Source: a virus. Taken from it: a DNA stretch of 64,000 bases. The stretch spans positions 1 to 64,000 of IMG/VR virus record IMGVR_UViG_3300020057_001229. One strand, written 5' to 3'. Both the position numbers and the translations under genes were made by a program. Below, one piece after another: positions 1,990 to 59,575 of the stretch (the stretch's first letter is position 1; every line of letters starts with the position of its first letter). The notes beneath the pieces are model-generated. The model worked only from the letters and a program-made list of their open reading frames with translations. It was not told the origin of the DNA and did not search any database.

Positions 1990-3136
1990 GAAAGAAGCCC
2001 CCGTCCTCCGAGGGCGGGGATGAATTTCAGTTAGTTAAAACCTGAAATCAGTGTAATATAGTTCCATGTTTCTAACCTACAACTTCAGAGTCAAAGACGC
2101 TTCTACCAAGAACCTTCTGAAGAGAATGGCTTCTGACACAAACTTCGTTTGGAACTTTTCAAACAACATAGTCAAAGACAACTGGCAGAAATCTAGAAAA
2201 TATACCTCTAAGTATGATTTGAACCCTCTCTTAAAGGGAAGTTCTAAATACCTTAATATAAACTCGCAGACAATCCAAGCTGTAGCTCATGAATGTGTTT
2301 TGAGGACACAGAAAGCAAAGAAATAAGTCAGATTCAGAACCGCAAAAAGAAACTTGGGGTGGGTTCCAATAAACGGGCAGACCTTCAAACTCCAAGGCTC
2401 AACTCTCATTTATAATAAGAAATACTTCAAACTTTGGAAATCTAGAGACCTGCCTAAAGACGCCCTTATTAAAACAGGATGCTTCTCCCAAAACTCTGAA
2501 GGAAAGTGGTTTTGTAATATAACGTTTGAAACTAAGCTTCTAGCTCGGAAAGCCCCCGAAAGGGAAGTCGCTCTAGATCTCGGTTTAAAAACCCTCTACA
2601 CAACTTCAGACGGTTTAAAGTACGAACTGAGAGTTAATAACACTAAGAAATATGCTTTAAAGCTGGCTAAAGCGCAAAGAGCTAAGAAGAAAAAACAAGT
2701 TACTAAGATCCACACCAAAATTAAGAACTCTAGAAAAGACTGGAACCACAAAGAAACCACAAAACTAGCATCGAATTACAACCTTATTTTCGTCGGAGAC
2801 GTAAGTTCTAAGGCGCTGAAGAAAACTAAGATGGCGAAGTCTGTTTCAGACGTAGCCTGGTTTCAGTTTAAAACTTTCCTGAAGTATAAAGCTATTAAGC
2901 ACTCAGGAGAGATGCATGAAATTAAAGAAAGATTTTCCACAGTAACTTGCTCGGTTTGCCTGTCGAAGACAGGTCCGAGCGGACTAAGAAACTGTGGAGT
3001 AAGAGATTGGATATGCAGCGGTTGTGGCTCTAGCCATGACAGAGATACAAACGCTGCTTCAAACATTCTCCGTTTCGGGCATGAAACGCTTAACTTAAAA
3101 GGAATCCCACGGCTAAAGCCGTGGGGAGGATGTCAA
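1990..3136 (+). mobile_element. IS200/IS605-family element carrying only a decayed tnpB
   Basis: Left end: a G/C-rich hairpin (1998-2019) followed by GGGGATGAATT, shared with the second remnant at ~13.4 kb. Right end: a CCACGGCTAAAGCCGTGG hairpin followed by GGAGGATGTCAA (to 3136). No tnpA is present, so it could only have moved with a transposase in trans. The right end falls inside the 3' end of the lipoprotein gene at 3113-3583, supplying that gene's last codons. A separate 10-bp hairpin at 1936-1959 (GGGTGGTT arms) precedes the element. Confidence 0.85.
2066..3136 (+). pseudogene. tnpB: TnpB-type RNA-guided nuclease, interrupted by an in-frame TAA
   Basis: N-terminal part (2066-2323) and the rest (2327 onward) are in the same frame, separated by a single TAA at 2324-2326. 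Continuing through it restores an RFR...LGW segment usual in TnpB, so this is a nonsense mutation, not a frameshift. RuvC-I (EVALDLGLKTL), a four-Cys zinc finger (CSVC...CSGC) and RuvC-III (HDRDTNAASNI) are present. At the RuvC-II position the motif is IFVGDVSS, with Asp rather than the usual Glu. No stop occurs before the right end; the frame runs on antisense into the neighbouring lipoprotein. Probably inactive. Confidence 0.85.
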
Positions 3137-3583
3137 CGTACCTGGACGTTCAAACATCTGCTTAAGCCTAAGGCTCTCTGCCGTAATGCGGTAGAAAAGT
3201 TGATCGGCGTAGGTGCCGTAGGTGGTAGCTGCATACGCTGTGCGGAAGCCTGCGTAAGTCATGCGTTCATAAATACGGTACGCATCTTCGACCTTGAAGT
3301 AGGTCACTTCGTTAAGTGCCGTCTCCAAGTTCTCAAGGGAGAGCGTAGCCGTATCTATAGAATCACAAAGAGCCGAGTAGGTGTTTACACAACCTACCGG
3401 CGAACGGATGTCGGTGTAGTCAAGGCGAAGTGTCGTAAGCGAGCTTAAAGCTTCAGCACGACGGAACCAACGGGGATCATTCTCAACCGGAGCTTCAGGC
3501 GTAGGAGCTGAATCACTCTTCTTAGAAGAGCTACCGCAAGACACTAAAAATGTGAGACAGCACAAAGCTACAAGCCTACGCAC
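3113..3583 (-). CDS. Lipoprotein, C-terminus rewritten by the IS right end
   Basis: 156 aa with a classic lipoprotein signal (basic start, hydrophobic core, LTFLVSC lipobox, Cys ~16), then a Ser/Pro-rich linker and a mainly helical domain. Probably anchored in the host envelope during infection; function unknown. The last seven residues (LTSSPRL) and stop codon are encoded by the right-end sequence of the adjacent IS200/IS605 element, so insertion replaced the original C-terminus. Confidence 0.75.
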   Translation of the reverse strand: MRRLVALCCLTFLVSCGSSSKKSDSAPTPEAPVENDPRWFRRAEALSSLTTLRLDYTDIRSPVGCVNTYSALCDSIDTATLSLENLETALNEVTYFKVEDAYRIYERMTYAGFRTAYAATTYGTYADQLFYRITAESLRLKQMFERPGTLTSSPRL

Positions 3584-7012: not shown

Positions 7013-7504
7013 GTGATTATAACGCCTAAGCAATTGTCTAAAGAGCGCCTCGACATTGGTAACGCTTCCGGCATCTACGTTATGTCTCACGATCAAGCCC
7101 GAACGTTCTACCCGAAGAGGGACGCCTTCTGTATCCGCATTAGGTCGGCGAACTTTGAATGCCAGCCGCTCGTCCACGCCGACCGCTACAAAAGCATCGA
7201 CCTATTCACGTTCGCCGACGTAGACTTCGACGACAAAGACTTTGAGCCCTTCACCACGGCGCAAGCCGCAGCTATGGTTGATCTTTTCGAAAAGTTCAAA
7301 GACCTCAACCTCGTCGTCCACTGCATGGCTGGTCTGTCGAGATCACCGGCTACCGCTTTGGCTTTCCTCTACTTCAAGCAGGACGTTGAAGGCTTCAGGC
7401 AGGCTTCGCTCTACTTCACGATGGCTAACAGCCACGTCTACAGTCTGCTCAAAAACGAGATCGACCGCAGAGCCGAAATTTATACCAATAACGTTATGCC
7501 GTAG
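7013..7504 (+). CDS. Dual-specificity/tyrosine phosphatase-like protein
   Basis: 163 aa. HCMAGLSRS at ~103-111 is the CX5R P-loop of cysteine phosphatases (Cys104 nucleophile, Arg110). A general-acid Asp could lie in DVDFDDKD (~69-76). Could dephosphorylate host or phage proteins or RNA 5' ends. GTG start without an obvious ribosome site. Its 3' end overlaps the convergent ADP-ribosylglycohydrolase by 25 nt. Confidence 0.8.
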   Translation: MIITPKQLSKERLDIGNASGIYVMSHDQARTFYPKRDAFCIRIRSANFECQPLVHADRYKSIDLFTFADVDFDDKDFEPFTTAQAAAMVDLFEKFKDLNLVVHCMAGLSRSPATALAFLYFKQDVEGFRQASLYFTMANSHVYSLLKNEIDRRAEIYTNNVMP

Positions 7505-8271
7505 ACTTTCTGGAACCGTAAAATGGCGTCTACGAAATGTGAGGGCAGCCGTTTGAAGGTCTCCACCACCATCATCTTCGGGATCTTACGGTAGTGAGCT
7601 TCCGCAATTGCTCCGGCAATGGACGCCTGCGTATCGGCATCTCCACCTAACGAGATCGCAAGCCTTATCGCCGACTCGAAGTCCGTGCTCTCCAAGAAGG
7701 CTCTGATTGCTTGCGGAACGGAGCCTTGGCAGGTGGCGTCCATTTTGTATTTCTTACGGATCATGTCGAGCGGCGTCGAGAGGTCGTAGCCGAAGCGAGT
7801 TTCTAGTTCTTGCCGCAACTTGTCTTTGCAGTAGCCACCATGAACGCACTTGTTCACCCAAACGGCATAAGCAACAGCTTGAGCCCCCTTAATGCCTTCG
7901 GGGTGACTATGTGTGGGGTACGCCGACGCCGCAGCTTCACGTAGAAGGTCGGTCTCTTGGCACTCGCTGTAGGCAACAGGAGAGACCCTCATAGCTGATC
8001 CGTTTCCGAACGAGTCGCCGGGCTTGGGGTCGTCCGACATAAACCAAGCTTTGAACGTCTTGCCGTAGCCTGCGTCAGGGTAGCGGCGACACCAATGAAG
8101 AAGAGCAAGCTCGTAGTCTTTGTGGTGCATCACGGCTTCAGCAACGGCTAAGGTGCAGACCGTATCGTCGGTGAACTTAGAGAACGGTGTAAAGAGTTTG
8201 AAGTCCGTCCGTTTCGTAGGATGAAATTCATAGGTACTTCCAACCATATCGCCAATAAGCGCACCTAGCAT
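7480..8271 (-). CDS. ADP-ribosylglycohydrolase (DraG/ARH family)
   Basis: 263 aa, near normal family length. Motifs in order: GALIGDMVGS (3-12), FTDDT (33-37) for the dinuclear Mg site, SHPEG (~122-126), and SLGGDADTQAS (207-217) giving the C-terminal metal ligands. Removes ADP-ribose from proteins or nucleic acids, or hydrolyses related metabolites. With the macro-domain protein (46650-47111) and ART-like protein (20562-21170) it suggests the phage edits ADP-ribosylation. Confidence 0.92.
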   Translation of the reverse strand: MLGALIGDMVGSTYEFHPTKRTDFKLFTPFSKFTDDTVCTLAVAEAVMHHKDYELALLHWCRRYPDAGYGKTFKAWFMSDDPKPGDSFGNGSAMRVSPVAYSECQETDLLREAAASAYPTHSHPEGIKGAQAVAYAVWVNKCVHGGYCKDKLRQELETRFGYDLSTPLDMIRKKYKMDATCQGSVPQAIRAFLESTDFESAIRLAISLGGDADTQASIAGAIAEAHYRKIPKMMVVETFKRLPSHFVDAILRFQKVYGITLLV

Positions 8272-12866: not shown

Positions 12867-13030
12867 GGCAAGACTCCTTAGGATACTTGGTCTCCGGCAT
12901 GAAGCTCCGAAATGGAGCTGTATAAGCCGCAGAACATTATGTAGGATGTAGTTACATTGGTAGGAGTTGCAAAGTCAATGGTAATCTTTAAAAGATATCG
13001 TTCGGCTCTTAAAAACTATGGTTCAACTAT

Positions 13031-13165
13031 ATGAGGCGAGTAGGCTACGTAGCCGTTTTATTCGCTGCTGTTTCAGCAGCTTGCTTCTTCCACCCCATAG
13101 TGGTCGGAGGTTTCGGCTACGCCTGCGTAGGATATCTGATCGGATATTATCAAAACCCAGCGTAA
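13031..13165 (+). CDS. 44-aa membrane peptide abutting an IS right end
   Basis: ATG at 13031 to TAA at 13163-13165. Sequence is mostly hydrophobic with two candidate membrane segments (VAVLFAAVSAACFF, GGFGYACVGYLIGYY). Its last residues (QNPA) and stop fall in the conserved CAAAACCCAGCGTAA of the IS right-end unit, so the original 3' end was probably replaced. No strong ribosome site seen. Confidence 0.45.
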   Translation: MRRVGYVAVLFAAVSAACFFHPIVVGGFGYACVGYLIGYYQNPA

Positions 13166-13198
13166 AACCCCCGGCTTTAGCCGTGGGGAGGATGTCAA
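13145..13198 (+). repeat. Solo right-end unit (~54 nt) of the IS200/IS605 family
   Basis: TATTATCAAAACCCAGCG then TAAAACCCCCGGCTTTAGCC and GTGGGGAGGATGTCAA. The same unit recurs at 35370-35414 and 55379-55428. Here it abuts, in opposite orientation, the truncated tnpB 5' end at 13199-13340. Confidence 0.8.
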
Positions 13199-13340
13199 TT
13201 GTGTATTTCCGAGAACGTCGCCAGTTTTCACGAATGACCTCATTGCAGGTATTCCAGACGAGGTTGACCTGCCCGGCGAATCCCTTCAGCAGGTTTCTTT
13301 TGTTTTGATCTTTTAGACGAAACCTGTAGGTCAATATCAT
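13199..13340 (-). pseudogene. tnpB 5' fragment (second copy)
   Basis: First ~47 codons of a TnpB (MILTYRFRLKDQNKRNLL..., VWNTCNEVI, WRRSRKYT), clearly homologous to the start of the 2066 copy but distinct in sequence. The frame then runs directly into an inverted right-end unit, so everything from the middle of the gene is deleted. Confidence 0.85.
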
Positions 13341-19724: not shown

Positions 19725-20065
19725 CTATCGTTGGCAAGGAGAATCATCAGACCTGGGAGATGTAGGACATGAGCTTGTGTCAGGCTGATCAGCGATGGCG
19801 AGCGCCGTAGACTTCAGCTCTGTGAACGACAGAGGATCATCTGAGAAGATGTCGTCGCCTTTATCGACTTCGTTGCCGTAGACGAAAGCCCGATAAACCT
19901 TGTAATTTTCATGATCTAACTGCGTCTGAAGCCATGCTTTGTATTTCTTGACCGAAGCGTCTGACGCTGAAGGCAGCCACCAAGTCCGCGAACGTACTGC
20001 TGAATGACCTTCGGAGGCAGCATAAGCTTTTCAGCTTTGGCTTGGACTTTGGTGACATAACGCAT
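19725..20065 (-). pseudogene. Frameshifted gene of unknown function
   Basis: ATG at 20065 begins MRYVTKVQAKAEKLML; near 19990 a one-base change shifts frame to LPSASDASVKKYKAWLQTQ, ...YRAFVYGNEVDKGDD, SFTELKSTALAIAD, ending at 19725. Both halves look protein-like, so the gene was intact recently. It lies between the helicase and the right-hand 25-nt repeat. Confidence 0.6.
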
Positions 20066-20071
20066 GGTTGA

Positions 20072-20096
20072 CCGTAATCATTGTGATCTTTTTCAC
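20072..20096. repeat. 25-nt direct repeat, right copy
   Basis: CCGTAATCATTGTGATCTTT plus TTCAC, one mismatch to 16911-16935 (start of RNase HI). Marks the right edge of the inserted cassette. Confidence 0.85.
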
Positions 20097-20136
20097 CATA
20101 GAAGGTTCCTACAAGATTCATGACTAGAGGTCAACG

Positions 20137-20565
20137 ATGCGTTATGTGAATTTAGTCGAAGCTAAGCTTAAAGGCTTTAAAGACAATAAAGTCGGTAAAG
20201 CGCTGACTGGCACAAAGTCTAAAGAAAAACTAACGATCCATTGGGAGTTCTTTGACCTCGACCGAGACGAGTTCTTCTATGGGTGTGAACTGAACATGGT
20301 AGTCAAAAATTCAACACGTATCGAAGTAGGTAGAGCCTATTTTAAATTCGATCAGGATGGGGACGAGCTTGTACCCTTTGACACTTACGATACAGCGGTT
20401 GAAGTAGATGAGAAATATAGACGACTTGGCATAGCGAACAAAATGTACGAGCTAGCTGAGAAGCTCACGTCCAAAAACCTCGTAGGTGGAGGTGAGCAAT
20501 CAAAAGACGCGAGCGCCCTATGGTCACAGAAAAATCGACCTTGGGGGAAGGGGTCCTATAAATGA
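20137..20565 (+). CDS. GNAT-like acetyltransferase
   Basis: 142 aa, AGAGGT 7 nt before ATG. The acetyl-CoA pyrophosphate-loop region VDEKYRRLGIANKMYELAE (~87-105) matches the GNAT motif A pattern (R-x-x-G-I/L-A/G). Substrate unknown. First of three genes joined by ATGA overlaps (20562, 21167). Confidence 0.7.
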   Translation: MRYVNLVEAKLKGFKDNKVGKALTGTKSKEKLTIHWEFFDLDRDEFFYGCELNMVVKNSTRIEVGRAYFKFDQDGDELVPFDTYDTAVEVDEKYRRLGIANKMYELAEKLTSKNLVGGGEQSKDASALWSQKNRPWGKGSYK

Positions 20566-34683: not shown

Positions 34684-34759
34684 GTCCACGTAATCCAACG
34701 GCAGAGATAGAGCGCTTAAAACGCTTCCAGCGTGGGTTCGAATCCCACCGTGGACACCA
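34684..34759 (+). tRNA. tRNA with Leu-type anticodon TAA but class I (short variable loop)
   Basis: Acceptor GTCCACG/CGTGGAC, anticodon stem GAGCG/CGCTT with loop CTTAAAA, so positions 34-36 are TAA (reads UUA). The variable loop is only 5 nt (CCAGC), whereas bacterial tRNA-Leu is class II. Encoded ACCA. Charging identity is therefore uncertain. Confidence 0.85.
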
Positions 34760-40352: not shown

Positions 40353-41018
40353 TTAGTCGGGTATCGCCGCCGAGCTGATGGCGTGTTCAGTTTTCAAATC
40401 TAGCAAACCTATGTAGAGCAAGTACATCACTACAGCATTAAAAATGTGCCACATGAAGTGGGTGCCTAGCGGGAAAGACTTGCAAAGTGGCAAGTCCAAA
40501 GCCCTCAACGTCAAAGAGGCTATAAACAGTACAGTTGCGCCTACGAACTTTTTGGTTGCTACCGAGCCTTTAACCCACACTTGGTAAGTAGCGATGGCGC
40601 TGAGCAGTAGAGTTCCGAAGTAGTAGTTGGAGTTGGCGACTAGGGAGTGATCGACGTAGGTCAAGAAGCCAAAGTTGATAGCGAAGAAGAGGGCGTAAAT
40701 TGAAAGAACTATCCAAGGTCCCAACGCCAACGCACTGTAGAAGGCTCCTATAAAGACTATGATCCAAGAAACCAACGGAAAGACATCAAGCCACCTCCCC
40801 CACGGCTCGCCGTAGACGTGCAGTAAAGCACTGCCTAAGCCCGTTACGAAGGTAAAGAAGGTCAAAAGAACTTTCGATAGAGACCAGTTCTTTGTCTCTA
40901 GTATCATGAACAGACCAGCAATCAGGAAGGCGACGTTTGACCATGTATTGAGAGGCTCGTAGAAGACTCTAGTGCCCGTTAAGCGTTCGCAGTAGGACGT
41001 AAGTGTGTTGTAGTCCAT
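40353..41018 (-). CDS. Alkaline ceramidase/CREST-family membrane hydrolase
   Basis: 221 aa with about seven membrane helices. CREST residues are visible: Ser63 and His67 (GSALLHVYG), Asp78 (WLDVFP), and His187/His191 (THFMWHIFNA), the zinc-hydrolase set. TWSN near residue 25 is also typical. Alkaline ceramidases cleave ceramide; bacterial relatives act on other membrane lipids. May remodel host membrane lipids. Confidence 0.8.
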   Translation of the reverse strand: MDYNTLTSYCERLTGTRVFYEPLNTWSNVAFLIAGLFMILETKNWSLSKVLLTFFTFVTGLGSALLHVYGEPWGRWLDVFPLVSWIIVFIGAFYSALALGPWIVLSIYALFFAINFGFLTYVDHSLVANSNYYFGTLLLSAIATYQVWVKGSVATKKFVGATVLFIASLTLRALDLPLCKSFPLGTHFMWHIFNAVVMYLLYIGLLDLKTEHAISSAAIPD

Positions 41019-41034: not shown

Positions 41035-41829
41035 TCATCCGCTCGATAGACCCGTCGAAGATGAATCTTGAGCCCTGCGAATGACTGGAATTTGGGATCT
41101 TAAGAAATCCCTGTTTTGGGTAAACACTGGAATATTATTATCAAGCACAAACCCCTCATCTTTAGGGGACTTAACAACCATTCGCCCCCTTTTCTGATAG
41201 ATTGGCAGATCGTTCCAGTTGATCCCCTTTGCCATTAGCATGTCGTGCATATTAGAGCAGTTCTTACCTTCTAGCTCTTTATGAGAATAAAGGCTTCTAG
41301 CCATCATCTGAAGGCTGTTGCGGGAGGCGTCTTGCTGCCGCCAAATGAAGTAGTTTTCTACCTCGATGGGGTCCGCAATTGTGAAGACTCTAGAATCGAA
41401 AAGAGCTATTTTGAATGTATCTTGAGAGCTTCGGAACCGGTTAGGAGCAAACGGAAAATCGTGGACCGATCCCTCACTTTGGAAACGGTTGTTAAAAGCC
41501 GCCGTAGCTACAGACGCACTTATTGAACAGATCTTCTGTATGTTGCCGTCAAAATAAGCGTCGGTGTTGTCGTTGCCGAAGTCTGTCATGAGAACCGAGA
41601 TTTCGTCGCTTTGTGTATACGAAAAGACCGCTCCGCTTAATGTCGTGCAAAGCAGATCGGCAGCGGCGTCCATGGAGCAAACAAGGCTGTCATCAATGGG
41701 GAAGTTCATTCCCTTCGTGAACGTATGGAAGGCTTTGCCGTCGATCCTGACCACCGTATACGTCCGCCGTGGCAAAAAGTAACGGGTGCGGTTTTCGTAG
41801 TTGCCTTTCATCCGGTCGCCGAGTTCCAT
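41035..41829 (-). CDS. Thg1-like 3'-5' polymerase (tRNA-His guanylyltransferase family)
   Basis: 264 aa. Opens LGDRMKGNYENRTRYFLP; VVRIDGKAFHTFTKG (metal Asp30, GKAFHTFT signature) and YTQSDEISVLM (Asp75-Glu76) are the two-metal catalytic motifs. Thg1-like proteins add nucleotides to tRNA 5' ends in the 3'-5' direction and repair truncated tRNAs. Relevant to the phage's tRNA set and permuted tRNA-like RNAs. Start overlaps the upstream gene by 22 nt. Confidence 0.92.
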   Translation of the reverse strand: MELGDRMKGNYENRTRYFLPRRTYTVVRIDGKAFHTFTKGMNFPIDDSLVCSMDAAADLLCTTLSGAVFSYTQSDEISVLMTDFGNDNTDAYFDGNIQKICSISASVATAAFNNRFQSEGSVHDFPFAPNRFRSSQDTFKIALFDSRVFTIADPIEVENYFIWRQQDASRNSLQMMARSLYSHKELEGKNCSNMHDMLMAKGINWNDLPIYQKRGRMVVKSPKDEGFVLDNNIPVFTQNRDFLRSQIPVIRRAQDSSSTGLSSG

Positions 41830-42647
41830 CGTCGAGGTCGCCTTTCTTTTACTTCGCTTACGTTACCCAAAGACCAGACGAGGTTCTCATCTATGTGGAG
41901 AAGCTGCAAGATATTTACGAGATGGTCTTCCTTCGGCACGTCTTTGTCGGAGTGAATGCAAATGCTGAAAAGCTTCTTGTCTGGAGTTCTTACCTTTACG
42001 GTGCCAAAGTACGGAATGACGTAGTAACCACGGACGCCTTGGAAGCCGACGAACTTTCTAACTACGAAGCGTTTGTAGTCCGCCTCCGAGATCATGTCCC
42101 GCAACGACAGTCGTGCTCTGAGGTCTGCACCGGGAAGCTTGACCTTCTTTGCCTTGCTTTCGTAGAGAGCCCGCATCTTCATTATCACATCGTCGTCGTC
42201 AAAATATTTGGCGGGCTTGTGCTTGCGGACTAAGCGGTCCTTCAAACTTTTAAGCGGGTTGCGGTAAAACTTGCCGTTTTCAACCAAAACTACGTAGCGT
42301 TCTAGCGACTGCAAAACCGTGTTCATGTTGGGGTGTATGAGGGGAGCAGATTGGGTCTCGTCAAGCTTTTGAAAGCTCGTGATGTAGCCTTCCTCGATTC
42401 CAAAGTTGAGGTCTTCGGACAGGATGCGGAAGCACTGCGTACCTTCGACCATGAATGTGCAAGCCTCGAAAGCTAAGCCAGCGATGCTCGTAACCGTACC
42501 GTCAGCATTTTTGATGTAGTCTTCGTGGACGAACTCGGGGTTGGTGACGTGAAGCTCGATGTCGGTACGACGCAAGATGTCTTCAAGACGAAGCCCGATG
42601 TCACATGCTGGTTGCATAATAGCTGCTGGTTGTGTACTGGTAGGCAT
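41808..42647 (-). CDS. Hypothetical protein co-transcribed with Thg1-like gene
   Basis: 279 aa from ATG 42647 (GGGAAAG upstream). No recognised motif; contains a basic middle (KSLKDRLVRKHKPAKYFDDDD) and KVRTPDKKLFSICIHSDKD. Overlap with Thg1-like gene suggests linked function. Confidence 0.75.
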   Translation of the reverse strand: MPTSTQPAAIMQPACDIGLRLEDILRRTDIELHVTNPEFVHEDYIKNADGTVTSIAGLAFEACTFMVEGTQCFRILSEDLNFGIEEGYITSFQKLDETQSAPLIHPNMNTVLQSLERYVVLVENGKFYRNPLKSLKDRLVRKHKPAKYFDDDDVIMKMRALYESKAKKVKLPGADLRARLSLRDMISEADYKRFVVRKFVGFQGVRGYYVIPYFGTVKVRTPDKKLFSICIHSDKDVPKEDHLVNILQLLHIDENLVWSLGNVSEVKERRPRRWNSATG

Positions 42648-42743
42648 AGACTTTCCCGTGCAAATTTTAGGCTGAATGGTGTACAATAGTACATCCACGC
42701 CTCGAACACTAAGTCAAAGATAAACCAAAGGAGTCGCCAACTT

Positions 42744-42983
42744 ATGCCAATTGCAAAACGACTTTTAGCGAAAGCTGCCGCCCTCAGTCAGCTCGTAAGC
42801 ATCGAGGCTGAGAGCCTCTTTAGGATGTTCGAGAGACGCAACTACCGTGAGCAAGAAGTCGAGCGGATTCTTACGTGCTTCAAAGATATGGGAGCTAACC
42901 CTGAGAACCTAGAAGGCGAACGCAGGCGTCTATTGGAAGATGATCTCTACTTAGAGTCATGGCAGGAAGCGACATCTGCGTAA
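42744..42983 (+). CDS. Small helical protein
   Basis: 79 aa, AAAGGAG before ATG. Fully helical, with RNYREQEVERILTCF. Stop codon lies in a GCGTA/TACGC hairpin (42978-42992) followed by A-rich sequence. Directly upstream of the large structured RNA. Confidence 0.7.
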   Translation: MPIAKRLLAKAAALSQLVSIEAESLFRMFERRNYREQEVERILTCFKDMGANPENLEGERRRLLEDDLYLESWQEATSA

Positions 42984-43014
42984 AAAATACGCAAAAGAAA
43001 AAAGCGAACGACAC

Positions 43015-43755
43015 CGAAAAAGCTCTTGCACTCTTCGAGTGGTTCACTTAAAACCTTCCTTGTCGGAAGCACTGAAGCAAACGTCGCAAGACAAGCCTGC
43101 TTCGGGGACTGAGAAGAGATAAGGCTTTAAATCGTGCTTTCTCAAAATCGAGCCGACACTCGGTTGAGTTAGGGTTTAACTCAATGAAAAGCATTGGTGA
43201 CAATGCAAGTCGAACTTGTGACAAGACAAGCCTTAAAATTTGTCAGAGATCAGGTTCAACTAAAAACTCCCTCGAAGATATCAAATTCGAGGCAAGCCGA
43301 CTCTTGAACTGTAGAGGTTCAAGGCGTAACTGGAGATAGACAGCTTGCGGCTCTCCATGGGGAGAAAGAGTTTGACATCGTTCAAGCTCCCGGATCTTGA
43401 AAATCCGGACCTCTGAAACCCGTCCAGACATGACGTAAAAATGTACGCTTCTCGCTCAAAGGGTTAAACCTACGAGCAAACTATAAGGTTCCCTGTAAGG
43501 GACGTTAAAGGAGAAGGGCGATGGCGGAGAAAAGTTGGGATTGTAATTCTAGACCGATCATCTGGAATATCTAAACGCCCCCAACAGAGAGACAACTCTT
43601 CAAACAATCGGAACTGCAACAGGGATTAATTATCCCGCCTTCGGCTAAGAGGATTAGTGCTCATCTTAGGGTGAGCCGAGTTAGCCAGGAGTGTAACGGT
43701 CCTAGTTCCGCGTCCGAGGAAGCCCGCTTAGGTTTACAGACCTAAGCGGGCTTCC
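43015..43755 (+). ncRNA. Giant ornate structured RNA (GOLLD/ROOL-like class)
   Basis: About 740 nt without a convincing gene but with a dense set of hairpins, e.g. CTTCC/GGAAG (43055-43069); GAAGCA/TGCTTC enclosing GTC-GCAA-GAC; TTGAGTT/AACTCAA (43164-43184); GCATTG-gtga-CAATGC (43191-43206); CCTCGAA/TTCGAGG (43270-43292); CTTGAAC/GTTCAAG (43303-43323); CCGGAT/ATCCGG (43390-43408); ATTCTAGA/TCTGGAAT (43546-43569); GGGAT/ATCCC (43622-43636). AAGGCTT (43121) can pair with AAGCCTT (43228) to close a multi-branch domain. GTGCTCA/TGAGC overlaps another stem, a possible pseudoknot. Ends in a 13-bp terminator (43721-43752). Size, position near tRNAs and style fit phage giant RNAs; family membership is unproven. 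Confidence 0.75.
43676..43709 (+). repeat. 34-nt direct repeat, copy 1 (in RNA 3' end)
   Basis: CCGAGTTAGCCAGGAGTGTA, then ACGGTCCTAGTTCC. Copy 2 at 45321-45354 has three differences. The two copies flank the histidine kinase gene. Confidence 0.85.
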
Positions 43756-43757
43756 AA
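43720..43757 (+). terminator. Terminator of the structured RNA
   Basis: Stem AGCCCGCTTAGGT/ACCTAAGCGGGCT (13 bp) with a 6-nt loop; no long T-run follows, so it could also be a stabilising 3' hairpin. Confidence 0.7.
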
Positions 43758-43838
43758 CATTTAATTTGGCTTGCTTGAGCATCGTGCTGACACTACTCTC
43801 AGGCGTCTGAAGACATATCCGAGTAGAGGGTTGCCGAC

Positions 43839-45329
43839 ATGCTGAAGGCAGTGCTGCGCATAGGAGGTGGTTTAGTCGCCGTGTTCGGTGTCGTGCTGGT
43901 GACGTACACACTTAAGAGGATAGACTCTTACCTCGCGGACACACCCCTGCTTCTAGGCATATCTTCGCTTACGCTGATCGCGTTTTTCTTCGGCTGGTGG
44001 TCCGCCGTCATCTCCGCGCTTGCTTTTATTACCCTCATTAAGCTCTACGTTTCGCCAGAAATCCACACGGTGTCTTTCAGTCTTTTTGTCGCTCAGACTG
44101 CGATCATTGCGGGGCTCATCGAGAAGCTAGGTAACGCACGCCGTAGCTGCTCAGACGAAGCTACCAAATGCCAAGAGACCGAACACGAGCTTCGAGCCGC
44201 AAAAGAGCACGCAGAAAGATCTAACCAGACTAAGGGAGAATTTCTAGCCAACATGAGCCACGAGCTTCGCACTCCTCTCGGTGTCATTCTAGGCTACAGC
44301 GAAATCATAGCGAACGACACGCCTTCAAAGGAAGAGAAGATAGAATATGCTGACGCTATTAAGCGCAATGGTGAAACGTTAGCCAGATTGATAGATGACA
44401 TACTTGACCTAAGTCTTGCAGAAGCACAAAAGATAAGTATTGAAATACTACCTACATGCCTTAAAGATCTATGTACAGTTTTAGAAAAAGAGATGACGCC
44501 TCTAGCTGTACTAAAAAATATACGATTAAAGGTACACTGCGCCGATGTTCCTAATAACATACGCACTGACCCAATTCGTCTTAGACAAATACTTAGCAAT
44601 CTAGTTAACAACGGTATTAAATTCACCCCTTACGGAGGTGAAGTAAGCGTGTATGTGGAAAAATATGAAGAGACGCTATGCTTCGTCGTTCGGGACAATG
44701 GTAAGGGAATTTCTACTGAAGAAGCTAAGAAGCTTTTCAAGCCCTTCTCACAAGCCGACAGCTCTACGACGCGGAAATATGGGGGGACAGGCTTAGGCTT
44801 AGCGCTTTCTAAAAAGCTTGCTCAAAGCCTTGGCGGGGATGTTTTTTTGCGGGAAAGCGTTCCCGGCAAAGGGAGCACATTCGTTGTTCAAATCCACTTG
44901 ACGCCGACATCCTTGCACGAGACCAAGAGCAAGCATAAACATTTTGACGGCGCTCTCGACGGTGTCCGAGTCCTTCTTGCCGACGATGCCTTCGATAACA
45001 GACTGCTTTTGAAAGCGCTTTTGAAGCCAACGGGTGCGCTGCTTCGACTAGTGGAAGACGGCGAGCAAGCGCTTCAAGCTGTGCAACAGCACGACTTTGA
45101 CGTTGTTTTCTTAGATCTTCAAATGCCTATAATGGACGGCTACGAAGCTTGCCGTGCGCTGAGAAGTCAAGGCTACACAAAACCTATCATCGCTTTGACC
45201 GCGCACGCTATGCAGGAAGAAAGAACCAAAACGAAGACTGCTGGGTTCGATGCCCATGTCACTAAGCCGGTCAACGTCGGAAACCTCGTGAGCGCAATTC
45301 GTGCCTCGCTCGACGCCAAACCGAGTTAG
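43839..45329 (+). CDS. Hybrid sensor histidine kinase (TM-HisKA-HATPase-REC)
   Basis: 496 aa. Three to four N-terminal membrane helices (~5-95), no large periplasmic sensor, coiled coil (~100-130), HisKA with His141 (ANMSHELRTPL), HATPase with N box (SNLVNNGIKF), DNGKGI and GGTGLGL, then REC with Asp382/383, phospho-acceptor Asp426 (FLDLQMP), Thr454 and Lys476. All catalytic residues intact. AGAGGG lies upstream of ATG. Needs an Hpt protein to pass phosphate on: see 34280 and receiver 59174. Its last codons lie in the 34-nt repeat. Confidence 0.95.
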   Translation: MLKAVLRIGGGLVAVFGVVLVTYTLKRIDSYLADTPLLLGISSLTLIAFFFGWWSAVISALAFITLIKLYVSPEIHTVSFSLFVAQTAIIAGLIEKLGNARRSCSDEATKCQETEHELRAAKEHAERSNQTKGEFLANMSHELRTPLGVILGYSEIIANDTPSKEEKIEYADAIKRNGETLARLIDDILDLSLAEAQKISIEILPTCLKDLCTVLEKEMTPLAVLKNIRLKVHCADVPNNIRTDPIRLRQILSNLVNNGIKFTPYGGEVSVYVEKYEETLCFVVRDNGKGISTEEAKKLFKPFSQADSSTTRKYGGTGLGLALSKKLAQSLGGDVFLRESVPGKGSTFVVQIHLTPTSLHETKSKHKHFDGALDGVRVLLADDAFDNRLLLKALLKPTGALLRLVEDGEQALQAVQQHDFDVVFLDLQMPIMDGYEACRALRSQGYTKPIIALTAHAMQEERTKTKTAGFDAHVTKPVNVGNLVSAIRASLDAKPS

Positions 45330-45384: not shown

Positions 45385-45413
45385 CAAAAAAAGGAGGCAT
45401 AGCCTCCTTTTTC
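45385..45413 (+). terminator. Rho-independent terminator
   Basis: Stem AAGGAGGC/GCCTCCTT with A-run before and T-run after; between the kinase and the convergent exported-protein gene, so may serve both strands. Confidence 0.85.
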
Positions 45414-46649: not shown

Positions 46650-47111
46650 CTAGCATTGAAATTTCTCAGGCGTACAGACTGTCCAAGTGCGGAGGTCTTG
46701 GATCTTTTCAATAAGAGCTTTGGACTGCTCCCAAGGCACGTAGAAAAGTCCGCTGTTGAAGCGGTTGCTGTAGATCTCTAGCTCTTTAGGAGCTTTCATC
46801 ATGAGGTCCATCAAAGCAAGAACGGTTGCGGTGAGGATCTTTGAGGGAGAGTCAACTTGAGCGCCGTAAGCCACTGAGGTCATCAGACAGCCGATGAAGT
46901 AGCCGCTGTCTTTAACTATGACGGCTCTTCCTAAGAGGTCTGCGCCGTGCTTTTCACAGGAGGCTCTATATTGTTCGTAGCCGACTGGGAAGCGTTCGCG
47001 AAAGGATTTGGCGATACCACTACCCCAGACGCCCTTAGTGTTGCAGGCATGAACAAGAAGGCTACCTGGAGCTGCTTCAAAGAGATCGTCCGAGGTCTCG
47101 ACTACCTTCAT
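46650..47111 (-). CDS. Macro-domain protein (Poa1-like ADP-ribose phosphatase)
   Basis: 153 aa. HACNTKGVWGSGIAKSF (21-37) is the ADP-ribose-binding loop with catalytic Asn/His environment; C-terminal YSNRFNSGLF-VPW matches Poa1-type macro domains. These dephosphorylate ADP-ribose-1''-phosphate, a by-product of RNA 2'-phosphate removal, or reverse ADP-ribosylation. Start overlaps the membrane protein gene by 35 nt. Confidence 0.85.
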   Translation of the reverse strand: MKVVETSDDLFEAAPGSLLVHACNTKGVWGSGIAKSFRERFPVGYEQYRASCEKHGADLLGRAVIVKDSGYFIGCLMTSVAYGAQVDSPSKILTATVLALMDLMMKAPKELEIYSNRFNSGLFYVPWEQSKALIEKIQDLRTWTVCTPEKFQC

Positions 47112-52307: not shown

Positions 52308-52385
52308 TCCGGTGTGGGGGAAGTTGGTAATCCCGCCTCGCTGTTACCGAGGAGCATGTACGTTCGATCCGTACCACCGGAGCCA
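52308..52385 (+). tRNA. tRNA-Asn (anticodon GTT)
   Basis: Acceptor TCCGGTG/CACCGGA, anticodon stem CCTCG/CGAGG with loop CTGTTAC, T arm GTACGTTCGATCCGTAC, encoded GCCA. The D arm is slightly enlarged. Confidence 0.93.
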
Positions 52386-54470: not shown

Positions 54471-54503
54471 AAAAAAGCCCCCCTTGGTAAAGAGAGGCTT
54501 TTA
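54471..54503. terminator. Terminator-like hairpin
   Basis: AAAAAAGCC ... GGCTTTT arms with A/T tracts on both sides, after the haem lipoprotein gene (minus) and near the start of 54201-54470. Confidence 0.6.
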
Positions 54504-54508
54504 GTAGT

Positions 54509-54877
54509 TTACGGCGGCAGATGTCGAGCGACATCAAAGGTCCGCCACGGACATCCGTGAGCTTTAAACCATGACACTAGCTCCGCACGCTCGCTGTCGG
54601 ACGGCTGCGTAGGAAACCTAGAAGGGGGCATCTTTTTCTCTTCGGCTTCGTGAGCAGCTTTGCGAGCAAACGCTGCGGCGTGCTCCGTCGTGTCGAGGAC
54701 GACGTTTGCCTTCGGTTCGGGACCGCTATGACATCTAGCACAGTAGGTGGTCAGAAGCTCTTGAGCCCTTGCGTCAGTAACCGCAGCAGGTGCAGGAGTG
54801 TCGTCGTGGTTAGACCCTTTGTCGTCACCACAGCCAGTCAGAAGCAGTGCAAGAGCAAGGCTTGAACGTAATAGTAT
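54509..54877 (-). CDS. c-type haem lipoprotein with ATA start
   Basis: 122 aa. Lipobox LALALLLTGC, linker rich in Asp/Pro/Ala, then YCARCHSGP with the CxxCH haem c motif, a downstream KKMPPSRFP (likely Met ligand) and ERAELVSWFKAHGC, the usual order of small cytochrome c domains. No ATG, GTG or TTG is available before the signal. The GGGGGG ribosome site is 6 nt from ATA at 54877, and a stop lies just upstream (54893-54895). So either ATA (or ATT) is the start, or the start was mutated. Confidence 0.7.
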   Translation of the reverse strand: MLLRSSLALALLLTGCGDDKGSNHDDTPAPAAVTDARAQELLTTYCARCHSGPEPKANVVLDTTEHAAAFARKAAHEAEEKKMPPSRFPTQPSDSERAELVSWFKAHGCPWRTFDVARHLPP

Positions 54878-54961
54878 GGAAATCCCCCCAATCTAAATTT
54901 ATAGACAATCGGTTGATTGTAGAGCCCAAAGGTATGGCTATCAAGCTGTCATAATGGCGGG

Positions 54962-59052: not shown

Positions 59053-59173
59053 GGTGTATGGTAGATGAGACTGGATACTGACGCAAGCGTAAAATTTGAG
59101 TGGACATGTTCTTGCAGTCGCCTCGACGACAACCAATCATGGAAGATGTATAAAAAAAGCGCAGGAGGCACCT

Positions 59174-59575
59174 TTGCGTATTTTAACAGTAGACGATAGC
59201 CATGACAGTGTAGTCCTTCTAGCGAAGGTGTTAGGCGACCATAACGTCATCTATTGCACGACGGAGCAAGAGATCCATGACGAGCTAAAAAGGTTTAAAC
59301 CCGAGTTGATTATTTTTGACTACTTGATACATGAGACGAACGCAATAGAGATTTACGACAGGCTTTCCGAACAAATGGAGCTGCCGACCTGCTTTTGCGT
59401 CTCGGGCTACTCCCCGAAGAATCTAGGGCTTTGCCTTGCCGCCACGCCGTTCTCGGCTTGGTTTCAGAAGCCTTTTAATTGGCGGGATCTCAGGGAGGCG
59501 ATCACTCGATTGGAACTTGGAGTATTCGCAGAGGGGACTTTTTCAGCTTCTCAATCAGCATCCTCAGCGTTCTGA
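59174..59575 (+). CDS. Stand-alone response regulator receiver (REC)
   Basis: 133 aa from TTG 59174, chosen because AGGAGG precedes it. RILTVDDS (Asp7/8), phospho-acceptor Asp49 (LIIFDYL), Ser77 (CVSGY), Lys99 (FQKPF). No output domain, so it probably acts like CheY/Spo0F by protein contact. Candidate endpoint or intermediate for the kinase-Hpt relay. Starts ~120 nt from permuted tRNA-like copy B on the opposite strand. Confidence 0.88.
   Translation: MRILTVDDSHDSVVLLAKVLGDHNVIYCTTEQEIHDELKRFKPELIIFDYLIHETNAIEIYDRLSEQMELPTCFCVSGYSPKNLGLCLAATPFSAWFQKPFNWRDLREAITRLELGVFAEGTFSASQSASSAF

Follow-up and report, generated by a model that had tools for sequence, protein, structure and literature searches.

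GOLLD and ROOL are large natural RNAs that are unrelated to each other and both form RNA cages; many GOLLD members exceed 800 nt, and how common cage formation is among large natural RNAs is presented as an open question in PMC12286853. ROOL is found in phages and plasmids, whereas GOLLD is of phage origin and is frequently, though not obligatorily, located near tRNA genes. A further RNA of this size class is described for the lytic phage ICP1, which has no tRNAs: an orphan of ~800 nt between gp139 and gp140 is the most abundant transcript, and the same article cites GOLLD as accumulating in lytic infection yet being dispensable for phage production (PMC7567579). Here we describe a candidate large structured noncoding RNA, located at 43015-43755 on the + strand of a phage genome fragment and recognized by its predicted fold, hairpin excess, strand bias and lack of long open reading frames.

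The region lies in a stretch of 64,000 nucleotides (hereafter, the window) corresponding to bases 1-64000 of an 88,687-base IMG/VR virus record. Judged by the relatives of its major head protein and by the identity levels to its nearest IMG/VR record, this record is a fragment of a divergent, PaBG-like jumbo phage. The head protein, encoded beyond the window in L004 (phrog_2522, E = 5.8e-59), is closest among named phages to those of PaBG, Lu11, BcepSauron and Erwinia jumbo phages (~31-33% identity), and is 70% identical to that of the nearest record (G001, 236 kb), with the remaining matched proteins mostly at 30-60% identity. There are 15 ARAGORN tRNA calls within the window, and the record also carries a Thg1 gene, identified as a Thg1-like tRNA-His guanylyltransferase at 41035-41829. 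Next to it, at 40353-41018, a ceramidase-like membrane protein scored just below the cut-off.

Genes at 39.7-42.7 kb are on the - strand. They are followed by a 79-aa ORF with an AAGGAG motif (42744-42983, + strand), a gene-free gap of 855 nt (42984-43838), which contains the region, and a hybrid histidine kinase with HisKA, HATPase_c and receiver domains (43839-45329, + strand), so that the genes on either side of the gap are both on the + strand. Neither the 79-aa ORF nor the 296-aa protein to its left could be assigned to a family or linked to relatives in phages. The kinase has matches in 214 records of the phage collection, only six of which cover 80% of its length, and it is followed by a hairpin at 45388-45412 flanked by A and T runs, the usual kind of bidirectional terminator. 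A separate receiver-domain-like ORF at 59096-59575 fell just below the cut-off.

In agreement with the initial annotation, no credible gene was found within the region, where the longest ORF does not exceed 62 aa. When reassigned stops were tried, frames on the + strand never exceeded 114 codons, and the longest frame under any reassignment (166 codons) appeared on the - strand, with TGA as a sense codon; following this test a recoded gene was dropped from consideration. The sole coding hint is a possible mini-ORF of 17 codons (MAEKSWDCNSRPIIWNI) at 43521-43574 on the + strand, with AAGGAG at 43508-43513, 7 nt upstream. An equally strong upstream match precedes 18 of the 1687 ATGs in the window.

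The region is distinguished primarily by its hairpins. We counted a hairpin as confident if its stem had at least 5 bp and a mean pair probability of at least 0.7, and used as the core the first 701 nt of the region, which exclude the hairpin at its 3' end. The + strand of the core has 13 confident hairpins, compared with 3.35 ± 1.7 in shuffled versions (none of 60 reached 13) and 4.6 ± 1.8, with a maximum of 11, in 80 other windows of 701 nt. The initial count of at least fifteen stable hairpins is thus reproduced with stems of at least 3 bp (16 hairpins), but not when 5 bp are required. Perfect local stems of 6 bp are similarly overrepresented (10 versus 2.2 ± 1.8 in shuffles, 0/200 as high), and two GNRA loops, GCAA and GUGA, were found, in line with the GNRA loops noted initially, against 0.08 per shuffle. 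The signal depends on the strand: the core has 13 confident hairpins on + versus 7 on -, and both GNRA loops are on the + strand only. Among 588 windows of 500 nt taken across the whole record, just four had nine or more hairpins. Two of them cover the region on the + strand (9 and 10 hairpins, compared with 5 and 6 on its - strand), and the others correspond, one per strand, to the tRNA cluster near 53.1 kb, which is an internal positive control for the scan.

Folding energy also indicates that the structure is real and that the region is strongly folded, beyond chance. The fold of the complete region has z = -6.64, part of which stems from the 3' hairpin; without it, the core has z = -4.29 (30 shuffles) or -3.18 (24 shuffles), whereas 20 comparison folds ranged from -2.95 to +0.67. 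The 855-nt gap (z = -8.23 on + and -8.04 on -) outscores all others when the 34 gaps of 350 nt or more in four records are ranked; second comes a gap with a tRNA inside, at -4.6. A gene-poor gap of 491 nt at 54471-54961, ~1 kb after a tRNA cluster, has z = -4.0 on + and -3.1 on - and no Rfam family. By energy the two strands of the region are nearly equal: the core scores -3.41 on - versus -4.29 on +, and in another shuffle set the full region reaches -7.17 on - and -6.15 on +. When 1108 windows of 200 nt were scanned, the body of the region did not stand out, with z reaching -6.3 elsewhere (20001-20200, as well as 4321-4520 of L004, are among the strongest scores of the record at z ~ -6.3), and the segment 43500-43620 folds at chance level. 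Hairpin count sets the region apart better than fold energy does. Unpaired bases are 46% A on the + strand and 25-26% on the - strand, which favours +, although this share equals that of shuffles and so follows composition; as evidence of base placement, A-enrichment was dropped.

The predicted fold can be described as a succession of domains on the + strand. Domain A (43019-43130) is multibranched and includes the GNRA (GCAA) hairpin at 43083-43092. Domain B (43130-43300) is a multibranch junction with about five hairpins, among them the GUGA tetraloop hairpin at 43191-43206 and a hairpin at 43270-43292 with the palindrome GAUAUC in its loop; its z of -4.52, equalled by none of 200 shuffles, agrees with the multi-branch closing pair reported initially. 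Domain C (43303-43408) is a row of compact hairpins with mean pair probabilities of 0.78-0.98. Domain D (43411-43529) is a branched stem that pairs most of the AAGGAG of the mini-ORF, and is followed by hairpin domain E (43534-43585), which has the palindrome GAUC in its loop and an apical stem with a mean pair probability of 0.96; the stretch 43411-43585 as a whole has z = -2.23, with 5/200 shuffles as good. Hairpin domain F (43587-43715) is predicted with mean pair probabilities of 0.40-0.81. The region ends in a perfect hairpin at 43718-43755, lacking a U-tract after it, which is a possible 3' end of the RNA. This is the long 3' hairpin of the initial annotation, unmatched in length by any other perfect hairpin in the 88.7-kb record, with 17 bp in the predicted fold and 16 in a perfect-repeat scan. 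The pseudoknot previously read from overlapping stems fared differently: long-range complementary 7-, 8- and 9-mers number 9, 3 and 0, versus 13.4, 3.4 and 0.9 in shuffles, and such complementarity was ruled out as support for pseudoknots. Because it is at or below chance, a pseudoknot and any tertiary plan remain guesses. OLE and GOLLD make self-kissing contacts through loops of the same kind as the palindromic GAUAUC and GAUC loops here (PMC12286853), but the latter are a lead only, since about 20 loops are roughly estimated to yield palindromes this short by chance. A repeat, CAAGACAAGCCT, was dropped as a motif, having two copies only.

To place the region among known RNAs, we compared it with all 4227 Rfam models. 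No family was found in the region at the gathering thresholds, and relaxing the threshold to E up to 10 added only four matches, all of chance level and well short of their cut-offs. Thus, the initially suggested GOLLD, ROOL, OLE and HEARO models did not match, nor did introns, RNase P, tmRNA or other Rfam families, and ARAGORN called no tRNA or tmRNA in the region. Searching the record with the ROOL (RF03087) and GOLLD (RF02032) models one at a time likewise returned no match; the ROOL model recovers the known ROOL of pMP118 at 130.4 bits, and the GOLLD result stands without such a positive control. Both families were also absent from all 46 records searched (44 head-protein relatives and two pattern hits), an empty answer that is weak evidence. 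The proximity to tRNAs often seen for GOLLD and ROOL, as mentioned in the initial annotation, does not hold here: the nearest tRNA genes lie 8.3 kb to the left (ending at 34759) and 8.6 kb to the right (starting at 52308). Of the proposal that the region is a member or a new relative of these families, what stands is the looser kind, a large structured phage noncoding RNA, as the region occupies several hundred gene-free nucleotides of a phage genome and is structured beyond chance. Membership in GOLLD or ROOL is not supported, and kinship to them cannot be claimed because no sequence relative was found; the analogy is in size, host type and absence of genes.

The same measures were applied to the described RNAs. 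ROOL, like the region, is large, gene-free and structured, and its unpaired bases are 44% A on the true strand versus 46% for the + strand of the region, whereas the two differ in the lack of any sequence-structure match and in the distance of the region from tRNAs. In the same test, ROOL of pMP118 (true strand) has z = -2.3 compared with -3.2 for the core of the region. GOLLD shares the size class and phage origin and differs in tRNA proximity and, by the uncontrolled search, in model match. The ICP1 RNA, taken as the whole gene-free space less 110 nt on the strand of the flanking genes, is likewise an orphan located away from tRNAs, no Rfam family exceeds its cut-off in it, its unpaired bases are 47% A versus 46%, and its fold z is -2.6 versus -3.2. 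It differs in that its expression was measured, and blastn of the phage collection revealed no similarity between the two. Confident hairpins per 100 nt amount to 0.55 in ROOL and 0.67 in the ICP1 RNA versus 1.85 in the region, which is therefore not a typical look-alike but a denser chain of local hairpins, and its architecture may differ from theirs; the lower densities of ROOL and the ICP1 RNA perhaps reflect in part their poorer G+C. Since a true ROOL scores low, hairpin density was dropped as a hallmark of giant RNAs. Many short hairpins in a chain are also characteristic of the protein-sponge RNAs of the CsrB/RsmZ type, which carry GGA in hairpin loops. By contrast, GGA is found in none of the 21 predicted loops listed for the region.

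Homologues were sought in several ways. With blastn, the region had none in 50,697 phage records and 72,556 plasmids, and comparison with 34 whole related records gave only matches of 15-28 nt. Looser blastn against four records (G001, G002, G003 and G019) produced three weak matches, all in G001 (53-75 nt, 66-72% identity), which, with E-values of 0.048-0.35, were taken as chance. G001, the closest relative, has 22 gaps of 350 nt or more, none of them comparable. Pattern searches of IMG/VR retrieved 10 stretches for a repeat motif, which are coding-like repeats and not homologues even though the spacing in four is exactly that of the window; 3 and 0 stretches for loop patterns, none related to the region; and 40 stretches for a 16-mer, rejected because all are in open frames (39 longer than 100 codons, one of 89) and without an alignment to the region beyond 49 nt. 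Two patterns yielded no stretches in genome contigs; exact patterns are poorly suited to detecting diverged RNAs, and near-identical records may be absent from the search results. A covariance model built from the single sequence of domain B had no match at E up to 1 in a set of 47 records that included 45 relatives, and its best non-self match in 444 kb of sequence had 14.5 bits. Neighbouring and other window genes, used as anchors, did not lead to relatives either, and literature searches on giant, ornate or abundant phage noncoding RNAs, including those of jumbo phages, turned up no entry that names the element. By sequence the region is thus an orphan, which is not proof that homologues are absent.

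Our preferred explanation, which we hold with moderate confidence, is that the region encodes a + strand structured noncoding RNA of ~740 nt that constitutes its own family and has a lifestyle like that of GOLLD, ROOL and the ICP1 RNA; it is a candidate analogue in kind of giant phage RNAs and not a demonstrated relative. A large structured phage RNA is supported by the hairpin excess, the + strand bias and the position in a run of + strand genes, to which the strongest gap z can be added. Counting against it are the missing homologue, the - strand folding almost as well, and the lack on the + strand of a sigma-70-like promoter within 42400-44000 and of a terminator-like site in the gap. Transcription would probably proceed with, or from within, a unit starting near 42.7 kb, and the 17-bp hairpin would bound the RNA at its 3' end. 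In the predicted fold, compact hairpins follow one another in an A-linked chain that has one multibranch hub or more, and the RNA would most likely act in trans as a stable folded particle during infection, as proposed for GOLLD and ROOL.

The main rival is a cis-acting inter-gene or leader RNA controlling the histidine kinase or the mini-ORF, with no separate life as an RNA. The + strand genes on either side and the distance of 83 nt to the kinase start downstream speak for such a role, as do the failure to find an own promoter and U-tract terminator on the + strand and the mini-ORF AAGGAG, which is spaced at 7 nt and largely paired in the predicted fold. On the other hand, the strong 3' hairpin separates the region from the kinase, a chance AAGGAG with ATG is not very unlikely at this length given its frequency in the window, and usual leader RNAs are far shorter than 740 nt. 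We regard cis control as rather unlikely. Still less probable is an element acting at the DNA level or a neutral one, such as a hairpin-rich origin, a packaging or spacer region, or sequence that has decayed in this particular lineage. Both strands beat shuffles by energy and related phages yielded no homologue, as would suit such an element, but the hairpins are biased to the + strand in the core as well as in the record-wide scan, both GNRA loops are confined to that strand, and decay would not be expected to yield such an excess of hairpins. That the region is a genuine GOLLD or ROOL that has diverged strongly, as size, phage genome, absence of genes and many hairpins could suggest, is highly improbable given the empty Rfam and single-family searches, a ROOL model that works on known ROOL (130 bits), 0/46 related or fetched records with either family and a location away from tRNAs.

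Within the favoured reading of a free-standing + strand RNA, an unlikely but consequential version would make the region the first recognized example of a new giant-RNA family in phages, one without sequence kinship to GOLLD or ROOL and constructed as an exceptionally dense row of compact hairpins; the GAUAUC and GAUC loops would then provide self-kissing contacts for homo-oligomer assembly. If true, phage RNA particles would have arisen independently a third time. Another giant RNA from a jumbo phage, unrelated to those two, would offer a direct test of how common cages are, and the case suggests that such RNAs can be orphans which family models miss and which are found only by strand-specific hairpin density.

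The record has several other features of interest. A TnpB-like gene (OrfB_IS605 and Cas12f1-like TNB domains) at 2066-3448 on the + strand is split into ORFs of 86 and 364 aa and has a relative in G001 at 45-50% identity; its 3' half, which has no Rfam match, shows unusually strong folding on either strand, the stronger being on -. The start of a second ORF, at 13023-13340 on the - strand, resembles the N-terminus of the TnpB-like protein. In addition, the window encodes an ADP-ribosylglycohydrolase at 7480-8271 and a macro domain at 46650-47111.
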